DNA from: Pseudochrobactrum saccharolyticum
Lineage (GTDB): Bacteria; Pseudomonadota; Alphaproteobacteria; Rhizobiales; Rhizobiaceae
Assembly (NCBI RefSeq): GCF_008801715.1
Contig: NZ_VZPG01000002.1
Span: 124,001-188,000, forward strand
Direction: 5' to 3'
Length of the DNA stretch: 64,000 nucleotides
The first letter of the stretch is position 1. Every line of letters begins with the position of its first letter. The notes beneath the pieces were generated by a model. The model saw nothing but the letters and a program-made list of their open reading frames with translations, was not told where the DNA came from and made no database searches. Both the position numbers and the translations under genes were made by a program. This document shows, piece by piece, positions 52,764-64,000 of the stretch.

Positions 52764-53936
52764 TTATTCCACGCCTTGTGTGCTTAGCCAGTTTTGCATG
52801 CGGCGGATGGCCAGATCCGGCCTGTCGAGCACATTGGCCTGATCTGCCAGCCGGAAAATATCGGTGTAATGCAACAGGCCGCGTGCCGATTGCATACCAG
52901 CAGGCATGGTGAAATGATTTTGATGGCCGTTGAGCCATGCCAGAAACACCACGCCTGCCTTGTAATATTGTGTCGGTGCCTCAAAAATTTTGCGTGATAA
53001 AGGCACGGTCGGCTCGATCACCGAACGAAATGTTGCATTGTCACCGGCGGCAAGCGCACTCAACGCATAGGAGGCGGAAGGGGCGACCGCATCGAAAATG
53101 CCGAGCAGGGCATGACTGTAGCGATTGCCGTCTCCCTCAATGAGTTCTGCATAATTAAAATCATCGCCGGTGAAGCACAGTACATTCTCAGGCAGGCGAT
53201 TGCGCAGTGCAATCTCGCAGGCACTGTCGAGCAATGAGATTTTAATGCCTTCAACACGGGAGCGGTTATCATTGATAATCGCCAGAACATTTGTGAGTGC
53301 ATCTTCAAAGGGACTGTCTGCCTGACCCGTCCAGTAGCTGCCAAGTTGCGGGTCAAACATTTCACCCAGCCAGTGCAGGACGACTTTGTTCTGCGCCTGA
53401 GAGAGAATCCGACCATAGACAAGCGCATAATCATCGGGGCTGCGGGCGATATGTGCCAGAGCGCGACTGGCCATCATAATGGCGCGGCCGCCATGTTTCT
53501 CCACAAATTCCAGCTGGGTTTCATAGGCTCTGATCACATCATCAAGAGATCTGGCGTCAGCTAGTACAAGTTGGTCGGTTCCAATCCCGCAAGCGAGATC
53601 TGCACCTTTGACAGTACGGGCGGTTTCCAGTGAGCGGCGGATGAGTTGCTGCGCGCCGTTCCAGTCCAGCCCCATACCGCGTTGCGATGTATCCATGGCT
53701 TCGGCGATTTTGAAGCCGAGGCTCCAGAGATGATGACGAAACGCCATGGTCGCGTCCCAGTCGATGGCGGGGCGGTTCCACGGATCAGTTTCACGCAGCG
53801 GATCGGAGACGATATGGGCGGCAGCATAGGCTATGCGATTGAACTGCGGCAGTGTTTGCGGACGAGGCACGACAGTGCCTGTCAGATGATAGTCTGTGAT
53901 TGTGCCGTCTGCATTCGGAAGCCGCAACATTGCCAT
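52764..53936 (-). CDS. DUF993 protein, dihydrodipicolinate-synthase-like TIM barrel
   Basis: The 390-residue protein matches DUF993. It begins MAMLRLPNADGTI and shows NRIAYAAAHIVSDPLRETDP, WNRPAIDWDATMAFRHHLWSLGF, EAMDTSQRGMGLDW, DLACGIGTDQ and HLG-type phrases of a TIM barrel. By family it should be a class I aldolase or lyase of unknown substrate. ATG 53936 is preferred over the longer frame to 54002 because GGAG lies upstream and the operator/promoter at 53963-53990 would otherwise be coding. It is divergent from lacI and the CoA-pathway genes, under a twin operator. Confidence 0.85.
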   Translation of the reverse strand: MAMLRLPNADGTITDYHLTGTVVPRPQTLPQFNRIAYAAAHIVSDPLRETDPWNRPAIDWDATMAFRHHLWSLGFKIAEAMDTSQRGMGLDWNGAQQLIRRSLETARTVKGADLACGIGTDQLVLADARSLDDVIRAYETQLEFVEKHGGRAIMMASRALAHIARSPDDYALVYGRILSQAQNKVVLHWLGEMFDPQLGSYWTGQADSPFEDALTNVLAIINDNRSRVEGIKISLLDSACEIALRNRLPENVLCFTGDDFNYAELIEGDGNRYSHALLGIFDAVAPSASYALSALAAGDNATFRSVIEPTVPLSRKIFEAPTQYYKAGVVFLAWLNGHQNHFTMPAGMQSARGLLHYTDIFRLADQANVLDRPDLAIRRMQNWLSTQGVE

Positions 53937-53962
53937 GGTGCTGTAATCTCCGGAAAAGCGAA

Positions 53963-54084
53963 AATAATTTAGATCGTTCCAATTTTTGAAAGAGTAATTC
54001 AATTTTTTGCAGATGCAACAGGCAATTTATATCGATTTTTCGGATTAATCTTCACTTGACAAATTTGGAACGATCTAATTTTAT
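53963..54084. promoter_or_regulatory. Divergent promoters with paired LacI-type operators
   Basis: The 14-bp imperfect palindrome TTGGAACGATCTAA occurs twice in opposite orientation, at 53969-53982 (as TTAGATCGTTCCAA) and 54065-54078. The plus promoter is TTGACA (54056-54061), 17 bp, TTTTAT (54079-54084). The minus promoter has TTCAAA then ATTATT (53968-53963) with about 16 bp between. In both, the operator fills the spacer between -35 and -10, so bound LacI protein would block both promoters. Confidence 0.8.
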
Positions 54085-54106
54085 GAGGGGAGACAGGGAG
54101 AATACC

Positions 54107-56163
<2,057 letters not shown>

Positions 56164-56167
56164 TAAT

Positions 56168-57793
56168 ATGAGCAAGCATATTACTCCCGCACAGGCCGCG
56201 GCTCTGATCCCCGATCATGCTGTGGTTACCGTTTCCTCATCAAGCGGACTTGGTTGCCCTGATCTGATGCTCAGAGCTATCGGTGAGCACTTTGAGGCAA
56301 CAGGCCATCCGCGCAATCTCACGACGCTGCATCCGATTGCGGCGGGGGATATGAGCGGTATTAAAGGTATTGATCATATTGCCAAAAAAGGTCTGCTGGC
56401 GAAAATTATCGGCGGGTCTTATCCGTCAGGCCCGTCATCGGCAGAATCGCCGCTGATCTGGCAGATGATCGGCGCGAATGAAATTCCTGCCTATAATGTG
56501 CCTTCCGGCATTCTGTTTGATATGCATCGTGAGGCTGCTGCCAAACGACCTGGCGTGATAACTAAAATCGGACTGGATACTTTTGTCGATCCTGATCGGC
56601 AGGGCTGCGCCATGAACGAGGCAGCACAGCGGGAGCCGGTTGTGCGCAAGATTGAATTTGCGGGTGAAGAATGGCTCTATTTTCCCAATATCATACCGCA
56701 GGTCGCCATCATTCGCGCAACAACGGCTGATGAACACGGCAATCTCACTTATGAGCATGAGGGAGCCACTCTCGGCGGGCTGGATCAGGCATTGGCCGCC
56801 CGTAACAATGGCGGCATTGTTATCGCGCAGGTGAAGCGCATTACCAAGCAGGGCTCGCTGAAACCGCATGATGTGCGTGTTCCGGGTATGTTGGTCGATT
56901 ATATTATTGTGGATCCGGAGCAGAAACAGACAACGCAGACAGTTTATGATCCGGCGATTTCCGGTGAGATTTTCAGACCATTGGAGAGTTTCCGCGTGCC
57001 GGAATTCAATGTGCAGAAGGTCATTGCACGCCGTGTTGCGCAGGAGCTTGAAGCGGGAAGCTGCGTTAATATCGGTTTTGGTATTTCAGCCAATGTGCCG
57101 CGTATTCTGATGGAAGAGGGGCTACACGGCTCTGTCACGTGGGTGATCGAGCAGGGCGCTGTCGGCGGTGTACCGCTATTGGATTTTGCATTCGGTTGCG
57201 CCTCCAATGCTGATGCCTATATGCCTTCGCCTTATCAGTTTACCTATTTTCAGGGCGGCGGCTTTGATGCCTCGCTGCTGTCTTTTCTTGAGATCGGGCG
57301 TGACGGCTCCGTCAATGTATCGCGGTTGTCTTTCCGCCCGCATGTGACGGCGGGAGCCGGTGGCTTTGTGGATATTACTGCGCGGGCAAAGAAGATTGTC
57401 TTTTCCGGCATGTTCAATGCAGGTGCAAAGCTCGGCATTGAGGGCGGAAGACTGGTTATTGAAAAAGAAGGCAAGCTGAAGAAGCTGGTCAATGAAACGG
57501 AGCATGTCACATTTTCCGGCAGCCGCGCCGTCGCGCAGGGACAGGATATTACCTATGTGACTGAACGCTGCGTGATGAAGCTGACATCACAAGGCATTAT
57601 GCTCACAGAAATTGCACCGGGTGTGGATTTGCAGGCGCATATTCTGGAGCAGTCGGAATTTCCGCTCATCATTTCGCCGGAACTGAAACTAATGGATGCC
57701 GCTTTATTCAGGGATGAGCCTCTTGGCCTGACTTTGCCGGAAAAACCGCAACGTATCTTACAAGAGCAGATCGAGGGGGGAGATCATGGCTGA
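56168..57793 (+). CDS. Acyl-CoA:acetate/3-ketoacid CoA-transferase (fused family I)
   Basis: The 541-residue protein carries both alpha and beta parts of a family I CoA transferase. The N-terminal half has VTVSSSSGLGCPDLMLRAIGEH and GGSYPSGPSSAESPLIW, the second half CVNIGFGISANVPRILMEEG. The catalytic Glu is in VIEQGAVGGVPLLDF. It would attach CoA from acetyl-CoA or a similar donor to a carboxylic acid. ATG 56168 is preferred over 56129 because GGGAGAG lies upstream and the gfo stop is only 4 bp before. The substrate acid is unknown. Confidence 0.88.
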   Translation: MSKHITPAQAAALIPDHAVVTVSSSSGLGCPDLMLRAIGEHFEATGHPRNLTTLHPIAAGDMSGIKGIDHIAKKGLLAKIIGGSYPSGPSSAESPLIWQMIGANEIPAYNVPSGILFDMHREAAAKRPGVITKIGLDTFVDPDRQGCAMNEAAQREPVVRKIEFAGEEWLYFPNIIPQVAIIRATTADEHGNLTYEHEGATLGGLDQALAARNNGGIVIAQVKRITKQGSLKPHDVRVPGMLVDYIIVDPEQKQTTQTVYDPAISGEIFRPLESFRVPEFNVQKVIARRVAQELEAGSCVNIGFGISANVPRILMEEGLHGSVTWVIEQGAVGGVPLLDFAFGCASNADAYMPSPYQFTYFQGGGFDASLLSFLEIGRDGSVNVSRLSFRPHVTAGAGGFVDITARAKKIVFSGMFNAGAKLGIEGGRLVIEKEGKLKKLVNETEHVTFSGSRAVAQGQDITYVTERCVMKLTSQGIMLTEIAPGVDLQAHILEQSEFPLIISPELKLMDAALFRDEPLGLTLPEKPQRILQEQIEGGDHG

Positions 57794-58565
57794 GCCGCGT
57801 ATCATAACTTCCCGTGACGGCGCCATTGCCACGATCACTGTCACACGGCCGGATAAGCTCAATGCATTTGATATTGAAATGCTGAAGGAATTATCAGCGG
57901 CCTGTGATGCGGTTGAGGCGGATAGTGCCGTGCGGATTGTTATTCTCACCGGCGCGGGCAAAGCTTTTTCCGCCGGCGGTGATATCAAAGCATGGGGCGC
58001 GATGCAGGCCAATGAATTCGGCCATCAATGGGTGCGTTTCGGTCATCGGGTTTTTGACCGGCTGGCAACATTGCGGATGCCGCTGATCGCCGCGATAAAC
58101 GGTCATGCTCTTGGCGGCGGGCTGGAACTTGCCGGAGCTGCGGATATCCGCATTGCCGAAAAGCATGTTACAATCGGCCTGCCTGAAACATCACTCGGTA
58201 TGGTTCCCGGCTGGTCCGGCACACAGCGTCTGGTGCAGCGTTTTGGTGCGCAGATTATCCGGCGTATGGTGCTGGGCGGCGAGATGTTCACTGCTGAAGA
58301 AGCCTGCAAATTGGGGCTGGTGGATCAGGTTGTTGAAAGCGGCTCAGCTTTGGAGGCTGCCAAGGCCTATGCAGCGCGTATTGTGACGCGCGGACCTGCG
58401 GCGCTTGAAATATCCAAGCTGATGATCGGTGTTGCCAATGGCGAGGATAATGGCGCAGCGGTTGAAACACTTGGTTCCATGCTGGCCGCCAAGACCGGTG
58501 ATCTCAAAGAAGGAGTTGCGGCTTTCAGCGGCAAACGTCCGGCAAATTTTAAAGGAGAATGGTAA
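57786..58565 (+). CDS. Enoyl-CoA hydratase/isomerase (crotonase) family protein
   Basis: The 259-residue crotonase has the CoA-binding phrase AFSAGGDIKAWG and both glutamates of true hydratases, one in HALGGGLELAGAADIRIAE and one in GLPETSLGMVPGWSGTQR. It may hydrate an enoyl-CoA or split a 3-hydroxyacyl-CoA by retro-aldol cleavage as in the feruloyl-CoA type. The start overlaps the CoA-transferase stop by eight bases. The following aldehyde dehydrogenase would fit the second reaction. Confidence 0.92.
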   Translation: MAEPRIITSRDGAIATITVTRPDKLNAFDIEMLKELSAACDAVEADSAVRIVILTGAGKAFSAGGDIKAWGAMQANEFGHQWVRFGHRVFDRLATLRMPLIAAINGHALGGGLELAGAADIRIAEKHVTIGLPETSLGMVPGWSGTQRLVQRFGAQIIRRMVLGGEMFTAEEACKLGLVDQVVESGSALEAAKAYAARIVTRGPAALEISKLMIGVANGEDNGAAVETLGSMLAAKTGDLKEGVAAFSGKRPANFKGEW

Positions 58566-60091
58566 TGGCCGTTCTGATTGCGCCCAAGCCTCCGGCAGAT
58601 ATCGCTGTTCGTGATTTTAAAATGCTGATTGATGGCGAATGGGTGGCCGCAGCATCGGGCAGGATGCTGGAACGCATTGCACCGGGGCATGGAGTGCCGG
58701 TGAGCCGTTATCCTGAAGGCAGTCATATTGATGCAGAGCACGCGATTGCAGCTGCAAAACAGAGCTTTGATACAGGAATATGGAACAGTAAAACCGGTGC
58801 CGAGCGCTCCAATATCTTGCTGAAAATCGCGGATATGATTGAGAAACGTGCAGAAGAACTGAGCTTCTGGGATGCCGTCGAGGCCGGAAAGCCGATCAGT
58901 CAGGTGCGGGGCGAGATTGCCGGTGCTGTTGATATCTGGCGCTATGCGGCTGCACTTGCCCGTGATTTGCATGGTGAGAGTTATAATACACTCGGTGACG
59001 GCACGCTGGGCGTTGTGTTGCGCGAGGCAATCGGCGTTGTGTCGATGATTACGCCGTGGAATTTTCCGTTTCTGATTATCAGCCAGAAGCTGCCTTTTGC
59101 TCTTGCTGCCGGATGTTCCTGTGTGGTCAAACCTTCGGAAATGACATCAGCTTCCACACTGATCCTCGGTGAAATTCTGACCGAAGCGGGTGTTCCTGCC
59201 GGTGTTGTGAATATTATCACCGGTACAGGTGCCGGTGCGGGTGCACTGCTGAGCACACATGCTGATGTGGATATGGTGTCTTTCACCGGTTCAACCGGTG
59301 TCGGTCGTCTGATTATGGCGAATGCAGCGCAGACACTGAAAAAAGTGTCGCTGGAGCTCGGCGGTAAGAACCCGCAAATCGTCTTTCCTGATGCGGATCT
59401 GGATGCATTTATTGATGCTGCGGTGTTTGGCGCCTATTTCAATGCCGGTGAGTGCTGCAATGCGGGTTCACGTCTGATTCTGCATAAAGACATCGCGGAT
59501 GATGTGATCTCCCGCATTATTGATCTTACCAAAAAGGTGAGACTGGGTGATCCGCTTGATCCGCAAACGCAGGTCGGTGCAATTATCAGTCAGCAGCATC
59601 TGGAGAAAATCAAAACCTATATATCCGGTGCTAAAGCGGATGGTGCTGCACTGAGTGCCGGCGGCGGAACCGTGGATTTTGACAGCGGTCAATATATGGA
59701 GCTGACTTTGCTATCGGGCGTCACGCCGGATATGGCCGTGGCGCGTGAGGAAGTGTTCGGCCCTGTCTTGTCTGTGCTGACATTTGAAACTGCGGAAGAG
59801 GCAATTCATATTGCAAATTCCATAGATTACGGCCTGTCAGCCAGTGTCTGGAGCCGTGATTTCGATACATGCCTGACTGTGGGGCGCAAGGTGCGTTCCG
59901 GTACAATCTGGATGAACACTTTCATGGATGGCGCATCGGAATTGCCGTTTGGCGGCTATAAACAATCCGGGCAGGGCAGAGAGCTTGGCCGTCATGCTGT
60001 TGAAGATTACACGGAAACAAAAACTCTGAATATGCATATCGGCTCACGAAAAACGCTTTGGGTGCGTGGCGGGAGCGCGGCTGAAGAATAA
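58565..60091 (+). CDS. NAD(P)-dependent aldehyde dehydrogenase
   Basis: The 508-residue enzyme oxidises an aldehyde to an acid. It shows TPWNFPFLI, the cofactor loop FTGSTGVGRL, LELGGKNPQIV with the general-base Glu, the catalytic Cys298 in GECCNAGSR, and EEVFGPVLSVL near the end. ATG 58565 overlaps the crotonase stop as TAATG, with AGGAG 7 bp upstream; ATG 58559 would be too close to it. Its substrate probably comes from the crotonase or from DUF993 cleavage. Confidence 0.94.
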   Translation: MAVLIAPKPPADIAVRDFKMLIDGEWVAAASGRMLERIAPGHGVPVSRYPEGSHIDAEHAIAAAKQSFDTGIWNSKTGAERSNILLKIADMIEKRAEELSFWDAVEAGKPISQVRGEIAGAVDIWRYAAALARDLHGESYNTLGDGTLGVVLREAIGVVSMITPWNFPFLIISQKLPFALAAGCSCVVKPSEMTSASTLILGEILTEAGVPAGVVNIITGTGAGAGALLSTHADVDMVSFTGSTGVGRLIMANAAQTLKKVSLELGGKNPQIVFPDADLDAFIDAAVFGAYFNAGECCNAGSRLILHKDIADDVISRIIDLTKKVRLGDPLDPQTQVGAIISQQHLEKIKTYISGAKADGAALSAGGGTVDFDSGQYMELTLLSGVTPDMAVAREEVFGPVLSVLTFETAEEAIHIANSIDYGLSASVWSRDFDTCLTVGRKVRSGTIWMNTFMDGASELPFGGYKQSGQGRELGRHAVEDYTETKTLNMHIGSRKTLWVRGGSAAEE

Positions 60092-60290
60092 TATTTTAAT
60101 CGATTTGAATTTTTCAGAACACTGCTTGACGAACGGAGAATTGTAACGTCCTATTTCGCCTGACGGTTGATCGTAAAAGAATAGCCCGATCAATCTTGCG
60201 AGCCGAAAATTTATGCTGTTCGGGAGGACAGCACGTAATGACCAAGCGGGAGGATTCCGCTGCTGACAACTTGCAAACGGGAGGAATACG

Positions 60291-61532
60291 ATGCGCAAGT
60301 TTATGACAACAACAGCAATGGCTTTAGGTTTTATGGCAGGTGCGGCTCAGGCTGCGGAGAATGTAGAGGTGCTGCACTGGTGGACAGCCGGCGGCGAAGC
60401 GGCAGCTCTGGATGTATTGAAGAAAGATCTCGAAGGTAAAGGGATCGGCTGGACGGATATGCCGGTTGCCGGTGGCGGCGGCACAGAAGCAATGACCGTT
60501 CTGCGTGCCCGCGTTACCGCGGGAAATCCGCCGACCGCCGTGCAGATGCTCGGTTTTGATATTCGTGACTGGGCAAAAGAAGGTGCGCTCGGTAATCTGG
60601 ATGAAGTTGCGGGTAAAGAAGGCTGGGAAAAGGTTATTCCCGCACCGTTGCAGGAATTTGCCAAATATGACGGTCACTGGATTGCCGCTCCGGTGAATGT
60701 TCACACCACCAACTGGATGTGGATTAACAAAGCAGCACTCGACAAGGCAGGCGGTAAAGAACCGGCCAATTGGGATGAGCTGATTGCACTGCTGGACAAG
60801 TTCAAGGAACAGGGCATTACCCCTGTGGCTCATGGTGGCCAGCCATGGCAGGACGGCACGATTTTTGATGCCGTGGTGCTGTCATTCGGCACGGATTTCT
60901 ACAAAAAAGCCTTTATTGATCTCGATCCGGAAGCACTGGGCAGTGATACGATGAAACAGGCTTTCGATCGTATGACCAAGCTGCGTTCCTATGTGGACGA
61001 TAATTTCTCCGGTCGTGACTGGAATCTGGCATCAGCGATGGTGATTGAGGGGAAGGCCGGTCTGCAATTTATGGGTGACTGGGCAAAGGGCGAATTTGTC
61101 AAAGCCGGTAAGAAACCGGGCGAGGATTTCGTCTGTATGCGTTATCCGGGAACACAGGGCGCTGTAACTTTCAACTCCGATATGTTTGCGATGTTTAAGG
61201 TTGCGGAAGACAAAGTTCCGGCGCAGCTGCAAATGGCTTCCGCGATTGAAAGCCCGACATTCCAGTCCGCTTTCAATGTCGTTAAAGGTTCGGCACCGGC
61301 ACGTACCGATGTACCGGATACCGCCTTTGATGCCTGCGGTAAAAAGGCAATCGCCGATGTGAAGGAAGCCAGTGAGAAGGGCACAATGCTCGGTTCCATG
61401 GCGCATGGCTATGCCAATCCTGCCGCTGTTAAAAATGCGATTTACGATGTTGTAACCCGTGAATTTAACGGTGAACTGACTTCGGAAGAAGCTGTGAAAG
61501 AGCTTGTGGCAGCCGTTGCCGCCGCTCAGTAA
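60291..61532 (+). CDS. CUT1-type sugar ABC transporter, periplasmic binding protein
   Basis: The 413-residue precursor has a signal peptide ([21 protein letters not shown]) and an MBP-like fold with [56 protein letters not shown] and [19 protein letters not shown]. The set of tryptophans is close to glucose/mannose-type binding proteins, but ligand choice cannot be read from sequence alone. GGGAGG lies 7 bp before the start. A 200-bp gap separates it from the ALDH gene, so it probably has its own promoter. Confidence 0.93.
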
Positions 61533-61548
61533 ACTGATTGCAAAACCG

Positions 61549-61570
61549 GAGGCTGCCTTTGCGCAGCCTC
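61549..61570 (+). promoter_or_regulatory. Stable hairpin between the binding-protein and permease genes
   Basis: GAGGCTGC (61549-61556) pairs with GCAGCCTC (61563-61570), with further CCGG pairing outside. There is no T-run. Such hairpins after binding-protein genes commonly protect the upstream mRNA and set a high ratio of binding protein to permease. Confidence 0.6.
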
Positions 61571-61683
61571 TGTGATCCGGCACCGATTGTGACCGGTCAT
61601 TTATTGACAGCATTTGAAATTGAATTTTTTTAAGCGCCTGTCCGGTTGTCTAGCCGGATATGTGCCAAGTGTGGTGATTGACC

Positions 61684-62562
61684 ATGAATAGCCGCAGCTG
61701 GTTGCAGGAGCTGTTGCCAAAACTTGTCTTGGCTCCGAGCTTTTTTATTATCCTGATTTTTGTGTATGGCTTCATTGCCTATACGGGGCTTCTGTCACTG
61801 ACAGACAGTAAGATGCTGCCATCCTATAATTTCGTAGGATTGGAGAATTATTCCAAGCTCTGGGCGCTGCCGCATTGGTGGCGGGCAATTTCCAATCTGG
61901 CGATTTTTGCGTCGCTTTATATCATTATCTGCTCGGTAATCGGGCTGTTTCTGGCGATTATGCTGGATCAGAAGATACGCGGTGAAGGTTTTCTGCGCCC
62001 GATCTATCTTTATCCGATGGCGCTGTCTTTCATTGTAACCGGCACGGCATGGAAGTGGTTTCTCGATCCGGGTATCGGGCTTGAACATACAATGCAGGTA
62101 TGGGGCTGGGAGAGCTTTCACTTCAACTGGATTAAAGATCGTAATTACGCGATTTACTGTGTGGTGATTGCAGCTGTCTGGCAGTCATCCGGTTTTATTA
62201 TGGCGATGTTTCTGGCTGGTTTGCGCGGCGTGGATAATGAAATCATCAAGGCCGCGCAGATAGACGGCGCATCGACATTTACGACCTATCGCCGGATTAT
62301 CATTCCGATGATGCGGCCGGTCTTCCTGTCGGCTTTTGTGGTGCTCGCGCATCTGGCGATCAAGGCCTATGACCTTGTTGTTGCTTTGACCGGCGGCGGC
62401 CCCGGACAGGCAACCGAAGTGCCTGCAACCTTTATGTATTCCTATACATTTACCCGCAATCAGATGGGGATCGGTGCTTCTTCGGCGATTATCATGCTGG
62501 CGATGATTTTCTCGATCATCATCCCGTATCTTTATGCGGAAATTCGCGGAGGGAAGCGCTGA
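61684..62562 (+). CDS. CUT1-type sugar ABC transporter, inner-membrane permease 1
   Basis: The 292-residue permease has six hydrophobic segments and the EAA loop EIIKAAQIDGASTFTTYRRIIIPMM, which contacts the ATPase. It resembles the MalF/UgpA-type subunit and starts MNSRSWLQELLPKLVLAPSFFI. The region before the start lacks a clear ribosome-binding site; TTG 61678 is an alternative. Its stop overlaps the start of permease 2 (TGATG), so the two are coupled. Confidence 0.93.
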   Translation: MNSRSWLQELLPKLVLAPSFFIILIFVYGFIAYTGLLSLTDSKMLPSYNFVGLENYSKLWALPHWWRAISNLAIFASLYIIICSVIGLFLAIMLDQKIRGEGFLRPIYLYPMALSFIVTGTAWKWFLDPGIGLEHTMQVWGWESFHFNWIKDRNYAIYCVVIAAVWQSSGFIMAMFLAGLRGVDNEIIKAAQIDGASTFTTYRRIIIPMMRPVFLSAFVVLAHLAIKAYDLVVALTGGGPGQATEVPATFMYSYTFTRNQMGIGASSAIIMLAMIFSIIIPYLYAEIRGGKR

Positions 62563-63446
62563 TGAGTGGTTCTGACAATCCGCAAAATGCAATCTCGCAT
62601 AAAAGGCTGACACGGGCGCTGATCTATACGCTGCTGCTGATCTTCGCCGTTTATTATCTGTTGCCGCTTTATGTGATGGTGGTCAATTCTTTCAAGCCGC
62701 TGGAGGAGATCCGGCAGGGCGGTATGCTCAATCTGCCGCAAAGCTGGACCATCGAGCCGTGGCTGTCTGCATGGTCTACAGCGCAGATCGGTGTGCAGCC
62801 AACCGGTGTGAAACCGTTCTTCATCAATTCCATTCTGATGGTGGTGCCTGCTGTTGCGATTTCCACCATTGTCGGTGCGCTCAACGGCTATGTGCTGACC
62901 AAATGGAGTTTTCGCGGTTCGAATATTTTCTTCGGATTACTGCTGCTGTCCTGCTTCATTCCGTTTCAGATTGTGCTGATCCCGATGGCGCGTATTCTCG
63001 GAATGCTGGGGCTCTCCGGTTCAATCTGGGGGCTTATCATGGTGCATGTCATCTATGGTCTTGGCTTCACAACTCTGTATTTCCGGAATTATTACGAGGC
63101 ATTTCCGACAGAACTGGTACGTGCCGCCCAGATCGACGGGGCAAGTTTCATGCAGATTTTCCGGCGCATTCTGCTGCCGTCTTCGGGGCCGATTATCGTG
63201 GTTTCAGTCATCTGGCAGTTCACGAATATCTGGAATGACTTTCTGTTCGGTGCGTCATTTTCCGGTGCGTCATCCACGCCGATGACGGTGGCGCTGAATA
63301 ATCTCGTCTCATCCTCAACGGGGGTGAAGGAATATAATGTTCATTTTGCAGCGGCGATCCTCGCCGCGCTGCCAACGCTGATCGTTTACATCGTTTCCGG
63401 TCGCTATTTTGTACGCGGTCTGATGTCCGGTGCTGTGAAGGGATAA
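62562..63446 (+). CDS. CUT1-type sugar ABC transporter, inner-membrane permease 2
   Basis: The 294-residue permease is the MalG/UgpE-type partner, with six membrane segments, the loop MVVNSFKPLEEIRQGG after helix 1 and the EAA loop ELVRAAQIDGASFMQIFRRILLP. The ATG overlaps the stop of permease 1 by one base. It precedes the ATPase gene by three bases. Substrate as for the binding protein. Confidence 0.94.
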   Translation: MSGSDNPQNAISHKRLTRALIYTLLLIFAVYYLLPLYVMVVNSFKPLEEIRQGGMLNLPQSWTIEPWLSAWSTAQIGVQPTGVKPFFINSILMVVPAVAISTIVGALNGYVLTKWSFRGSNIFFGLLLLSCFIPFQIVLIPMARILGMLGLSGSIWGLIMVHVIYGLGFTTLYFRNYYEAFPTELVRAAQIDGASFMQIFRRILLPSSGPIIVVSVIWQFTNIWNDFLFGASFSGASSTPMTVALNNLVSSSTGVKEYNVHFAAAILAALPTLIVYIVSGRYFVRGLMSGAVKG

Positions 63447-63449
63447 TTC

Positions 63450-64000
63450 ATGTCATTTCTTAAAATCACAAACCTTCGCAAGTCATACGGCGCTGTAGAA
63501 ATTCTCAAGGATATCAGCCTTGAGGTTGAGGAGGGCGGTTTTCTGGTGCTTGTCGGGCCGTCCGGCTGCGGAAAATCCACTTTGCTCAACACGATTGCCG
63601 GACTGGAGCCGATCAGCGCGGGTGATATTGCTATTAATGGTCAAGCGGTCGCTGATCTGCCGCCGTCCAAACGTGATATTGCCATGGTGTTTCAGTCCTA
63701 TGCGCTTTATCCGAATATGACGGTTGCCGGAAATATCGCATTCGGCATGGAAGTGCGCGGCGTTCCGAAAGACGAACGTGAAAAAGCCATCCGCGACGTA
63801 TCGGAAATGTTGCAGATCGGGCATTTGCTGGATCGCAAACCCAGCCAGCTTTCCGGCGGTCAGCGCCAGCGTGTGGCAATGGGGCGGGCGCTGGTGCGCA
63901 ATCCGCAGGTCTTTCTGTTTGATGAGCCATTATCCAATCTTGATGCCAAGCTGCGTGTGGATATGCGCACCGAGATCAAACGTCTGCATCAGCGTATGAA
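63450..64000 (+). CDS. CUT1-type sugar ABC transporter ATPase (MalK/UgpC-like), C-terminus outside window
   Basis: The visible 184 codons include Walker [10 protein letters not shown], the Q-loop [13 protein letters not shown], the ABC signature [15 protein letters not shown] and Walker [17 protein letters not shown]. It energises the two permeases. The C-terminal regulatory OB domain typical of MalK should follow beyond the right edge, with about 150-180 more residues. The start follows the permease 2 stop by three bases. Open at the right end of the window. Confidence 0.95.

Follow-up and report, generated by a model that had tools for sequence, protein, structure and literature searches.

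The non-phosphorylative Entner-Doudoroff route ends with a 2-keto-3-deoxygluconate (KDG) aldolase and a glycerate kinase, and the module that converts feruloyl-CoA to vanillin consists of a CoA ligase, a crotonase of the HCHL type and a vanillin-type aldehyde dehydrogenase. The catabolism of 1,5-anhydro-D-fructose by Sinorhizobium morelense, the source of the 1,5-anhydro-D-fructose reductase (AFR) 2glx, was reportedly described by Kuhn, Yu and Giffhorn in 2006. According to the accessible part of a 2025 review (PMC12441222), the published next step is a C1 hydroxylation to mannose by a P450-like enzyme, the enzyme after AFR in Rhizobiaceae being unidentified, and an anaerobic breakdown of 1,5-anhydroglucitol by YbiW/PflD relies on a phosphotransferase and an oxygen-sensitive glycyl radical reaction. 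Another related system is the oxidative deoxyribose/deoxyribonate pathway which, in the available part of its description (PMC6365646), processes a sugar acid via CoA esters. Here, we compare with these systems a gene cluster of Pseudochrobactrum saccharolyticum (assembly GCF_008801715.1) at the right end of the window, a stretch of 64,000 nucleotides that corresponds to positions 124,001 to 188,000 of contig NZ_VZPG01000002.1. The cluster encodes a DUF993 protein, a LacI-family regulator, AFR, a CoA-transferase (CoAT), a crotonase (ECH), an aldehyde dehydrogenase (ALDH) and a CUT1 sugar importer with its binding protein (SBP).

We tentatively propose, with a little less than even confidence, that this is a LacI-controlled aerobic operon for 1,5-anhydro sugars (1,5-anhydro-D-fructose, 1,5-anhydromannitol and perhaps 1,5-anhydroglucitol), in which known enzyme families would act together with a DUF993 lyase. 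All of the genes named are intact (Table 1), and overlaps of 4-8 bases at LacI/AFR, CoAT/ECH and ECH/ALDH, with a gap of 199 bases between ALDH and SBP, agree with the single operon read by the initial annotation. As that annotation had anticipated, the cluster extends beyond the right edge of the window, with the rest of the importer ATPase, two GMC flavoproteins (GMC1 and GMC2), a short-chain dehydrogenase/reductase (SDR) and a Dabb-domain protein. Its outline of an imported sugar that is converted to an acid, activated with CoA and cleaved by a lyase is retained, but the roles it gave to the sugar dehydrogenase and to ALDH and its analogy with feruloyl-CoA breakdown are not. It also took sugars to be normally broken down without CoA esters, but the deoxyribonate route mentioned above had already been proposed to use them.

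The Gfo/Idh/MocA protein of the operon shares 253 of 331 residues (76%) with 2glx without any gap, and its structure matches are 2glx (E 2.3e-167) and 4koa (E 6.5e-165). Residues K95, D177 and H181, which we take to be the catalytic Lys/Asp/His of the family (K94, D176 and H180 in its numbering), are kept in at least 95% of 89 aligned sequences; the sets used for residue conservation were cut at 40% identity for ECH, 55% for CoAT and 50% for AFR and ALDH. Because of its 76% identity to a solved AFR, this enzyme most likely reduces a ketone, and its initial assignment as an acid-forming sugar dehydrogenase was set aside, the protein being too close to AFR. GMC2, which is of the choline-dehydrogenase type, and ALDH, in which C300, presumably the catalytic Cys, is present in 80/80 proteins, would be better candidates for making the acid. 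GMC1 is related to FAD-dependent glucose/fructose dehydrogenases. A BetA/BetB-like breakdown of carnitine or choline by GMC2 and ALDH was also considered and rejected: scores stay below the betA and BADH cut-offs, and AFR, the sugar importer and the glycerate kinase do not fit.

CoAT is a fused family-I CoA-transferase of 540 amino acids, similar to FadX of S. aureus and YdiF of E. coli (NF052271 FadX at 352 bits, below the 750-bit cut-off; YdiF 2ahu at 1.7e-110), and its E327, which we assume to be at the position of the catalytic Glu, is found in 103/103 proteins. In ECH, E114, E134 and W143 are each present in 100/100 proteins, E114 and E134 being, as judged by their motifs, presumably the two catalytic glutamates of hydratase-type crotonases. 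A retro-aldol crotonase of the HCHL type was dropped because both hydratase glutamates are retained, and the scan of the operon proteins with Pfam and NCBIfam profiles turned up no CoA ligase. The operon resembles the feruloyl-CoA module in placing a crotonase and ALDH beside a CoA-activating enzyme but differs from it in having a CoA-transferase instead of a ligase, both glutamates, a sugar importer and AFR. The invariant W143 lies within PGWSGTQRL, where hydratases have PGAGGTQRL, and may mark the substrate pocket of this crotonase subfamily. SDR scores above the cut-off of the 3-ketoacyl-ACP reductase model. At one relative locus (L150:226-714), a 4HBT thioesterase gene adjoins DUF993; the cluster there also holds CoAT, ECH, SDR, Dabb, a glycerate kinase and a CUT2-like importer, and CoA may be removed before DUF993 acts.

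The DUF993 protein matches PF06187 over the whole profile (positions 1-382 of 382; 8.9e-178, 591.5 bits, cut-off 24). An AF2 model built from 24 sequences, with that of L082 left out of the alignment, had a mean pLDDT of 86.9. The first Foldseek match was 4dnh (SMc04132, uncharacterised), followed by dihydrodipicolinate synthase (DHDPS) and KD(P)G aldolase structures; among the 50 top matches, ranks 2-50 all belong to the DHDPS/NAL/KDG aldolase superfamily (E 3e-8 to 6e-7, target-normalised TM 0.60-0.82). K254 in the EGIKIS motif, numbered from the TTG start, is invariant in 105/105 DUF993 proteins. The model has the (beta/alpha)8 fold of the DHDPS superfamily, and DUF993 is probably a C-C lyase, in keeping with the lyase-type protein initially annotated. 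This fold and the glycerate kinase partner recall the non-phosphorylative Entner-Doudoroff ending; unlike there, DUF993 is a separate family and CoA activation is proposed to precede cleavage. An anti-phage role was rejected as there was no PADLOC match. No paper describing DUF993 by name was found in a search that left most subscription journals outside.

The divergent DUF993 and LacI genes share an operator region, as initially noted: TTGGAACGATCTAA occurs twice between them in the window, in opposite orientation, at 53969 and 54065. In the window genome only these two sites match the degenerate pattern with at most 1 mismatch, and the reversed pattern, used as a control, matched once forward and once in reverse. 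Across relatives, 115 loci were mapped, of which the operator test kept the 78 with DUF993 and LacI as divergent neighbours inside the size limits set for them. A site near TTGGAACGTTCCAA lies between the two genes in 78/78 of them (best site with at most 3 mismatches to that of the window), and the letter-shuffled control of each locus gave an operator-like site in 2/78 at the same threshold; the loci are related and the motif was derived from the window, so that these counts are not independent. A second copy with at most 3 mismatches, for which there was no shuffled control, is present in 77/78 loci (4 mismatches in L087). At no more than 2 mismatches, the operator stands before AFR in six rearranged clusters (L182-L185, L187 and L188) and before GMC1 in L149, L151, L152, L155, L182, L183 and L188, and in Polaromonas (L085) it precedes both genes of a PAAT importer and CoAT. 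Since the operators travelled with the rearranged genes, which is hard to explain otherwise, the operator-bearing genes look like one regulon and those of the window like one co-regulated, LacI-controlled operon. The second operator copy (54065-54078) falls within the listed LacI frame, for which reason the LacI start was moved to GTG 54110; this and ATG 53936 for DUF993 are the most likely starts, so that the genes remain where they were initially placed but two of their start frames shift.

Links also emerge between the type of importer and the enzymes encoded beside it. CoAT is in view in 80 of the mapped loci; a CUT1 binding protein accompanies it in 64 and a PAAT importer in 4, while the other 12 show neither importer. 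The combination of a sugar importer with CoA chemistry in the initial annotation is supported. ALDH is present in 64/64 of the CUT1 clusters and AFR in 62/64, one of the two exceptions (L079) ending before the place of AFR; L187, a CUT1 cluster not among the 64, has no ALDH in view. PAAT importers usually serve polar amino acids and the like. The four PAAT clusters, of which the Polaromonas importer was Pfam-checked and those of Bosea were assigned by similarity to it, keep CoAT, ECH, SDR, DUF993 and LacI; AFR, ALDH and GMC occur in none of them. A single TRAP cluster has DctP, DctQ and DctM after CoAT-ECH and only a distant Gfo protein (29%), with no ALDH and no GMC; neither DUF993 nor the operator was seen at this locus. 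Because the PAAT and TRAP clusters keep the CoA genes without an AFR orthologue, GMC or ALDH, the comparison suggests a two-stage order from sugar to acid, then to acyl-CoA, dehydration/oxidation, C-C cleavage and a C3 acid. ALDH, initially assigned the oxidation of an aldehyde after cleavage, is missing from the four PAAT clusters and the one TRAP cluster although CoAT and ECH are kept, and probably acts before CoA activation.

Neighbourhoods were compared as the initial annotation had suggested for Rhizobiales, and the same gene run recurs there, elsewhere in the Alphaproteobacteria and in a single genome outside that class; most counts come from related Rhizobiales and are not independent. 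Gene calls in relatives, made by codon-position GC, are rough, with the genes that matter checked by Pfam, and DUF993, AFR, CoAT, ECH, SDR, GMC and ALDH proteins with a stop, an unknown residue or a match below 80% of the query were dropped. Among the named DUF993 loci, the best 80 of at least 590 relatives, CoAT is in view in 71, CoAT and ECH in 70, and CoAT, ECH and AFR in 65. Five distant genomes (L182-L185 and L188) carry AFR-CoAT-ECH-ALDH-SBP-P1-P2-ATP-GMC1-SDR-GMC2-DUF993 as a single run at 43-76% identity, that of L184 (genome G196) belonging to a different class of the phylum. S. meliloti Ak57, in whose deposited annotation AFR is already named, shows the order of the window plus a kinase: DUF993/LacI-AFR-CoAT-ECH-ALDH-importer-GMC-SDR-GMC-glycerate kinase. 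A glycerate kinase is near DUF993 in 8/115 mapped loci (L075, L079, L083, L149-L152 and L155) and is also found in L195; in the window genome the only member of this family sits on another contig. Its proximity to DUF993 in several loci, S. meliloti among them, suggests that the product is a C3 acid. Dabb-like proteins adjoin ECH or glycerate kinase genes in L150, L194, L151, L152, L149, L155 and L079, which makes the Dabb-domain protein a likely further member of the pathway.

In an even draw across the phylum, DUF993 was found in 36/398 genomes. Besides that of the window there are 35 such neighbourhoods: CoAT and ECH are visible in nine; 17 show, rather than these, a different Gfo protein together with an AP_endonuc_2 TIM-barrel protein; and six have DUF993 with importer, SDR and GMC genes, all six genomes encoding AFR and CoAT and five of them being the distant ones with the single run (L182-L185 and L188). 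Of the last three, L146 and L147 show DUF993 alone, with the CoA cluster of their genomes on another contig (L187 and L186), and L154 has SDR, a TIM protein and a distant CoAT. The second context of DUF993 comprises 21 loci (L122-L131, L134, L135, L138, L139, L148, L077, L078, L082, L088 and others) with the different Gfo/Idh/MocA protein, DUF993, the AP_endonuc_2 protein and often other ABC importers. An orthologous CoA-transferase is not in view in these loci and the operator is absent from 21/21 of them; they probably represent a further pathway with the same lyase at its end. In Raoultella (L080 and L084), the neighbours of DUF993 include an acyl-CoA dehydrogenase together with ETF-like proteins and ETF-QO, as well as a choline-dehydrogenase-like GMC protein and ALDH; the Bosea loci likewise have an acyl-CoA dehydrogenase after DUF993.

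In the pathway that we propose, the CUT1 importer would take up a neutral sugar, and AFR would reduce 1,5-anhydrofructose to 1,5-anhydromannitol, the reaction that the S. morelense enzyme reportedly catalyses. By oxidising 1,5-anhydroglucitol at C2, GMC1 could feed AFR. GMC2 and ALDH would then turn the primary alcohol at C6 into a carboxylate, CoAT would form the CoA ester, and ECH would remove the beta-hydroxyl at C4 to give a 4,5-unsaturated enol-ether acyl-CoA. Oxidation of a ring hydroxyl by SDR and ring opening would lead to a 3-deoxy-2-keto or 2,4-diketo hexonate, which DUF993 may split into pyruvate and a C3 unit ending as glycerate, the substrate of a glycerate 2-kinase. Every step after AFR is a proposal, and their two-stage order was inferred from comparative genomics. 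Also in favour of this reading, SMc04396 of S. meliloti, by gene order the probable SBP orthologue, is said in the accessible part of PMC4960864 to be dextrin-induced. We consider it rather unlikely that the operon is the missing oxygen-compatible route for 1,5-anhydro-hexitols, 1,5-anhydroglucitol included, through a cyclic-ether acid, CoA activation, crotonase-fold ring opening and DUF993 cleavage, which would be the first function for DUF993. If the anhydro-sugar reading is right, the substrate class would be that of YbiW/PflD, but neither a phosphotransferase nor a glycyl radical enzyme is among the operon proteins scanned. No published account of the operon as a pathway was found among the literature titles and abstracts searched, most subscription journals lying outside that search.

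Several observations weigh against an anhydro-sugar operon of this kind. Ring opening through addition of water at C5 would be non-standard crotonase chemistry, and the profile alignment that places K254 (GIK) on or beside the GVK lysine of the genome's own DHDPS is non-significant. With respect to control, the operator at no more than 2 mismatches is absent from L189 and missing in 5/6 CoAT loci without AFR (L194, L195 and L197-L199; present in L196). A second LacI precedes the importer in some relatives, including three of the five distant runs, and in ten loci, mostly from Brucella, Ochrobactrum and their relatives, GMC1 and CoAT occur with no CUT1 binding protein in view; for these two reasons, the transporter and the CoA genes may be partly under separate control. 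A 2015 regulon study, in the part available (PMC4560400), includes the Sinorhizobium regulator SMc04401, by gene order probably the S. meliloti counterpart of the window LacI, and gives a mean regulon of 4.04 genes. SMc04390-SMc04392 are placed within a PhaR-dependent set in the accessible part of PMC12542648.

AFR and the CoA module are also separable, as would be expected if the operon degraded the acid of another sugar or polyol, with AFR as a side entry or as the reductase of a different 2-keto sugar and the logic of sugar acid, CoA and DUF993 unchanged. We regard this as quite possible, if doubtful. AFR occurs in 5/385 genomes of the class (E <=1e-90) and CoAT in 8/385 (E <=1e-170), with both in only 2, and AFR is missing beside CUT1 in L143, L186 and L196. 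The AFR-only neighbourhoods L190 and L193 show no CoA module, L192 being too short to tell. L193 (6227-12000) brings together an AFR-like protein (49%), a true DHDPS-family protein, ALDH and a GMC protein without CoA genes; it is possibly a CoA-free version of the pathway, and its gene set fits a DHDPS-type lyase at the pathway end but also shows that CoA need not take part. The variety of importers (CUT1, PAAT, TRAP and CUT2-like) likewise favours another acid, but AFR accompanies CoAT in nearly all CUT1 clusters and carries the operator directly upstream in the six rearranged ones.

Closest to the S. morelense account is the possibility that 1,5-anhydromannitol is oxygenated at C1 to mannose by an enzyme encoded outside the cluster and that the CoA genes act on another acid and share no more than the regulation, which we consider improbable. 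Both systems share the AFR orthologue and an aerobic Rhizobiaceae host, and the mannose route through an unidentified P450-like hydroxylase, as retold in the part of the review seen (PMC12441222), conflicts with oxidation at C6. A P450-family protein is encoded by 13/14 genomes tested, that of the window included, but in G262, which carries the full cluster, no P450 was matched anywhere in the genome, and no P450-like enzyme is among the operon proteins scanned. Here AFR is joined, unlike in the S. morelense account, to GMC, ALDH, CoA-transferase, crotonase and DUF993, and one type of operator marks AFR, CoAT, GMC1, DUF993 and LacI even after rearrangement. About as improbable in our view is a deoxyribonate-like route, in which a 3-keto acyl-CoA would yield acetyl-CoA and glyceryl-CoA, CoAT would move CoA from glyceryl-CoA to the next substrate and the glycerate kinase would take glycerate. 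The score of SDR agrees with it, as does the K. michiganensis deoxyribonate cluster with its CoA-transferase, beta-hydroxyacyl-CoA dehydrogenase and glycerate kinase (PMC6365646, in the part available). That pathway depends on either a thiolase or the beta-keto acid cleavage enzyme (DUF849), but the operon proteins scanned include neither, and no search for them was made in the remaining genome; AFR, crotonase and DUF993 are not part of the deoxyribonate route, which leaves no role for AFR, the GMC enzymes and DUF993.

The features of the cluster are collected in Table 1. After the Dabb gene follow a 268-residue protein without a Pfam match and a choloylglycine-hydrolase-like protein (PF02275, L009:18335-19486), both of which look unrelated to the operon.

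Table 1. Features of the cluster in window coordinates or, past the window edge, in those of L009, a region of the same genome (window coordinate = L009 position + 51499).
Feature	Position	Strand	Remarks
DUF993 protein, predicted DHDPS-superfamily fold, probable C-C lyase	52764..53936	-	PF06187; likely start ATG 53936
LacI-type operator, copy 1	53969..53982	-	TTGGAACGATCTAA read on minus strand
LacI-type operator, copy 2	54065..54078	+	TTGGAACGATCTAA
LacI-family regulator	54110..55156	+	PF00356, PF13377; listed frame TTG 54056, likely start GTG 54110
AFR, 1,5-anhydro-D-fructose reductase orthologue, Gfo/Idh/MocA	55153..56163	+	matches 2glx, 4koa
CoAT, fused family-I CoA-transferase, YdiF/FadX type	56171..57793	+	PF01144
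ECH, crotonase with both hydratase glutamates	57786..58565	+	PF00378 4e-52
ALDH, aldehyde dehydrogenase	58559..60091	+	PF00171 2.6e-165
SBP, CUT1 sugar-binding protein	60291..61532	+	PF01547
CUT1 permease 1	61678..62562	+	PF00528
CUT1 permease 2	62562..63446	+	PF00528
CUT1 ATPase, cut at window edge	63450..64000; whole gene L009:11951-13066	+	
GMC1, GMC flavoprotein beyond window edge	L009:13076-14611	+	
SDR beyond window edge	L009:14608-15384	+	
GMC2, second GMC protein beyond window edge	L009:15424-17079	+	
Dabb-domain protein beyond window edge	L009:17088-17408	+	

According to the part of the review available (PMC12441222), the neutropenia of GSDIb and G6PC3 deficiency has 1,5-anhydroglucitol as its harmful precursor, and a probiotic lowering intestinal 1,5-anhydroglucitol is unlikely to work unless an enzyme acting under aerobic conditions is found. 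The operon described here, widespread among soil bacteria, may be the oxygen-using route that has been missing for bacterial consumption of anhydro sugars, and it supplies named candidate genes for such aerobic use in S. meliloti, a standard laboratory bacterium. Its design appears modular, the front end that would convert the sugar to an acid being absent where the importer is of the PAAT or TRAP type, and the DUF993 family gains a pathway context and a predicted reaction class.

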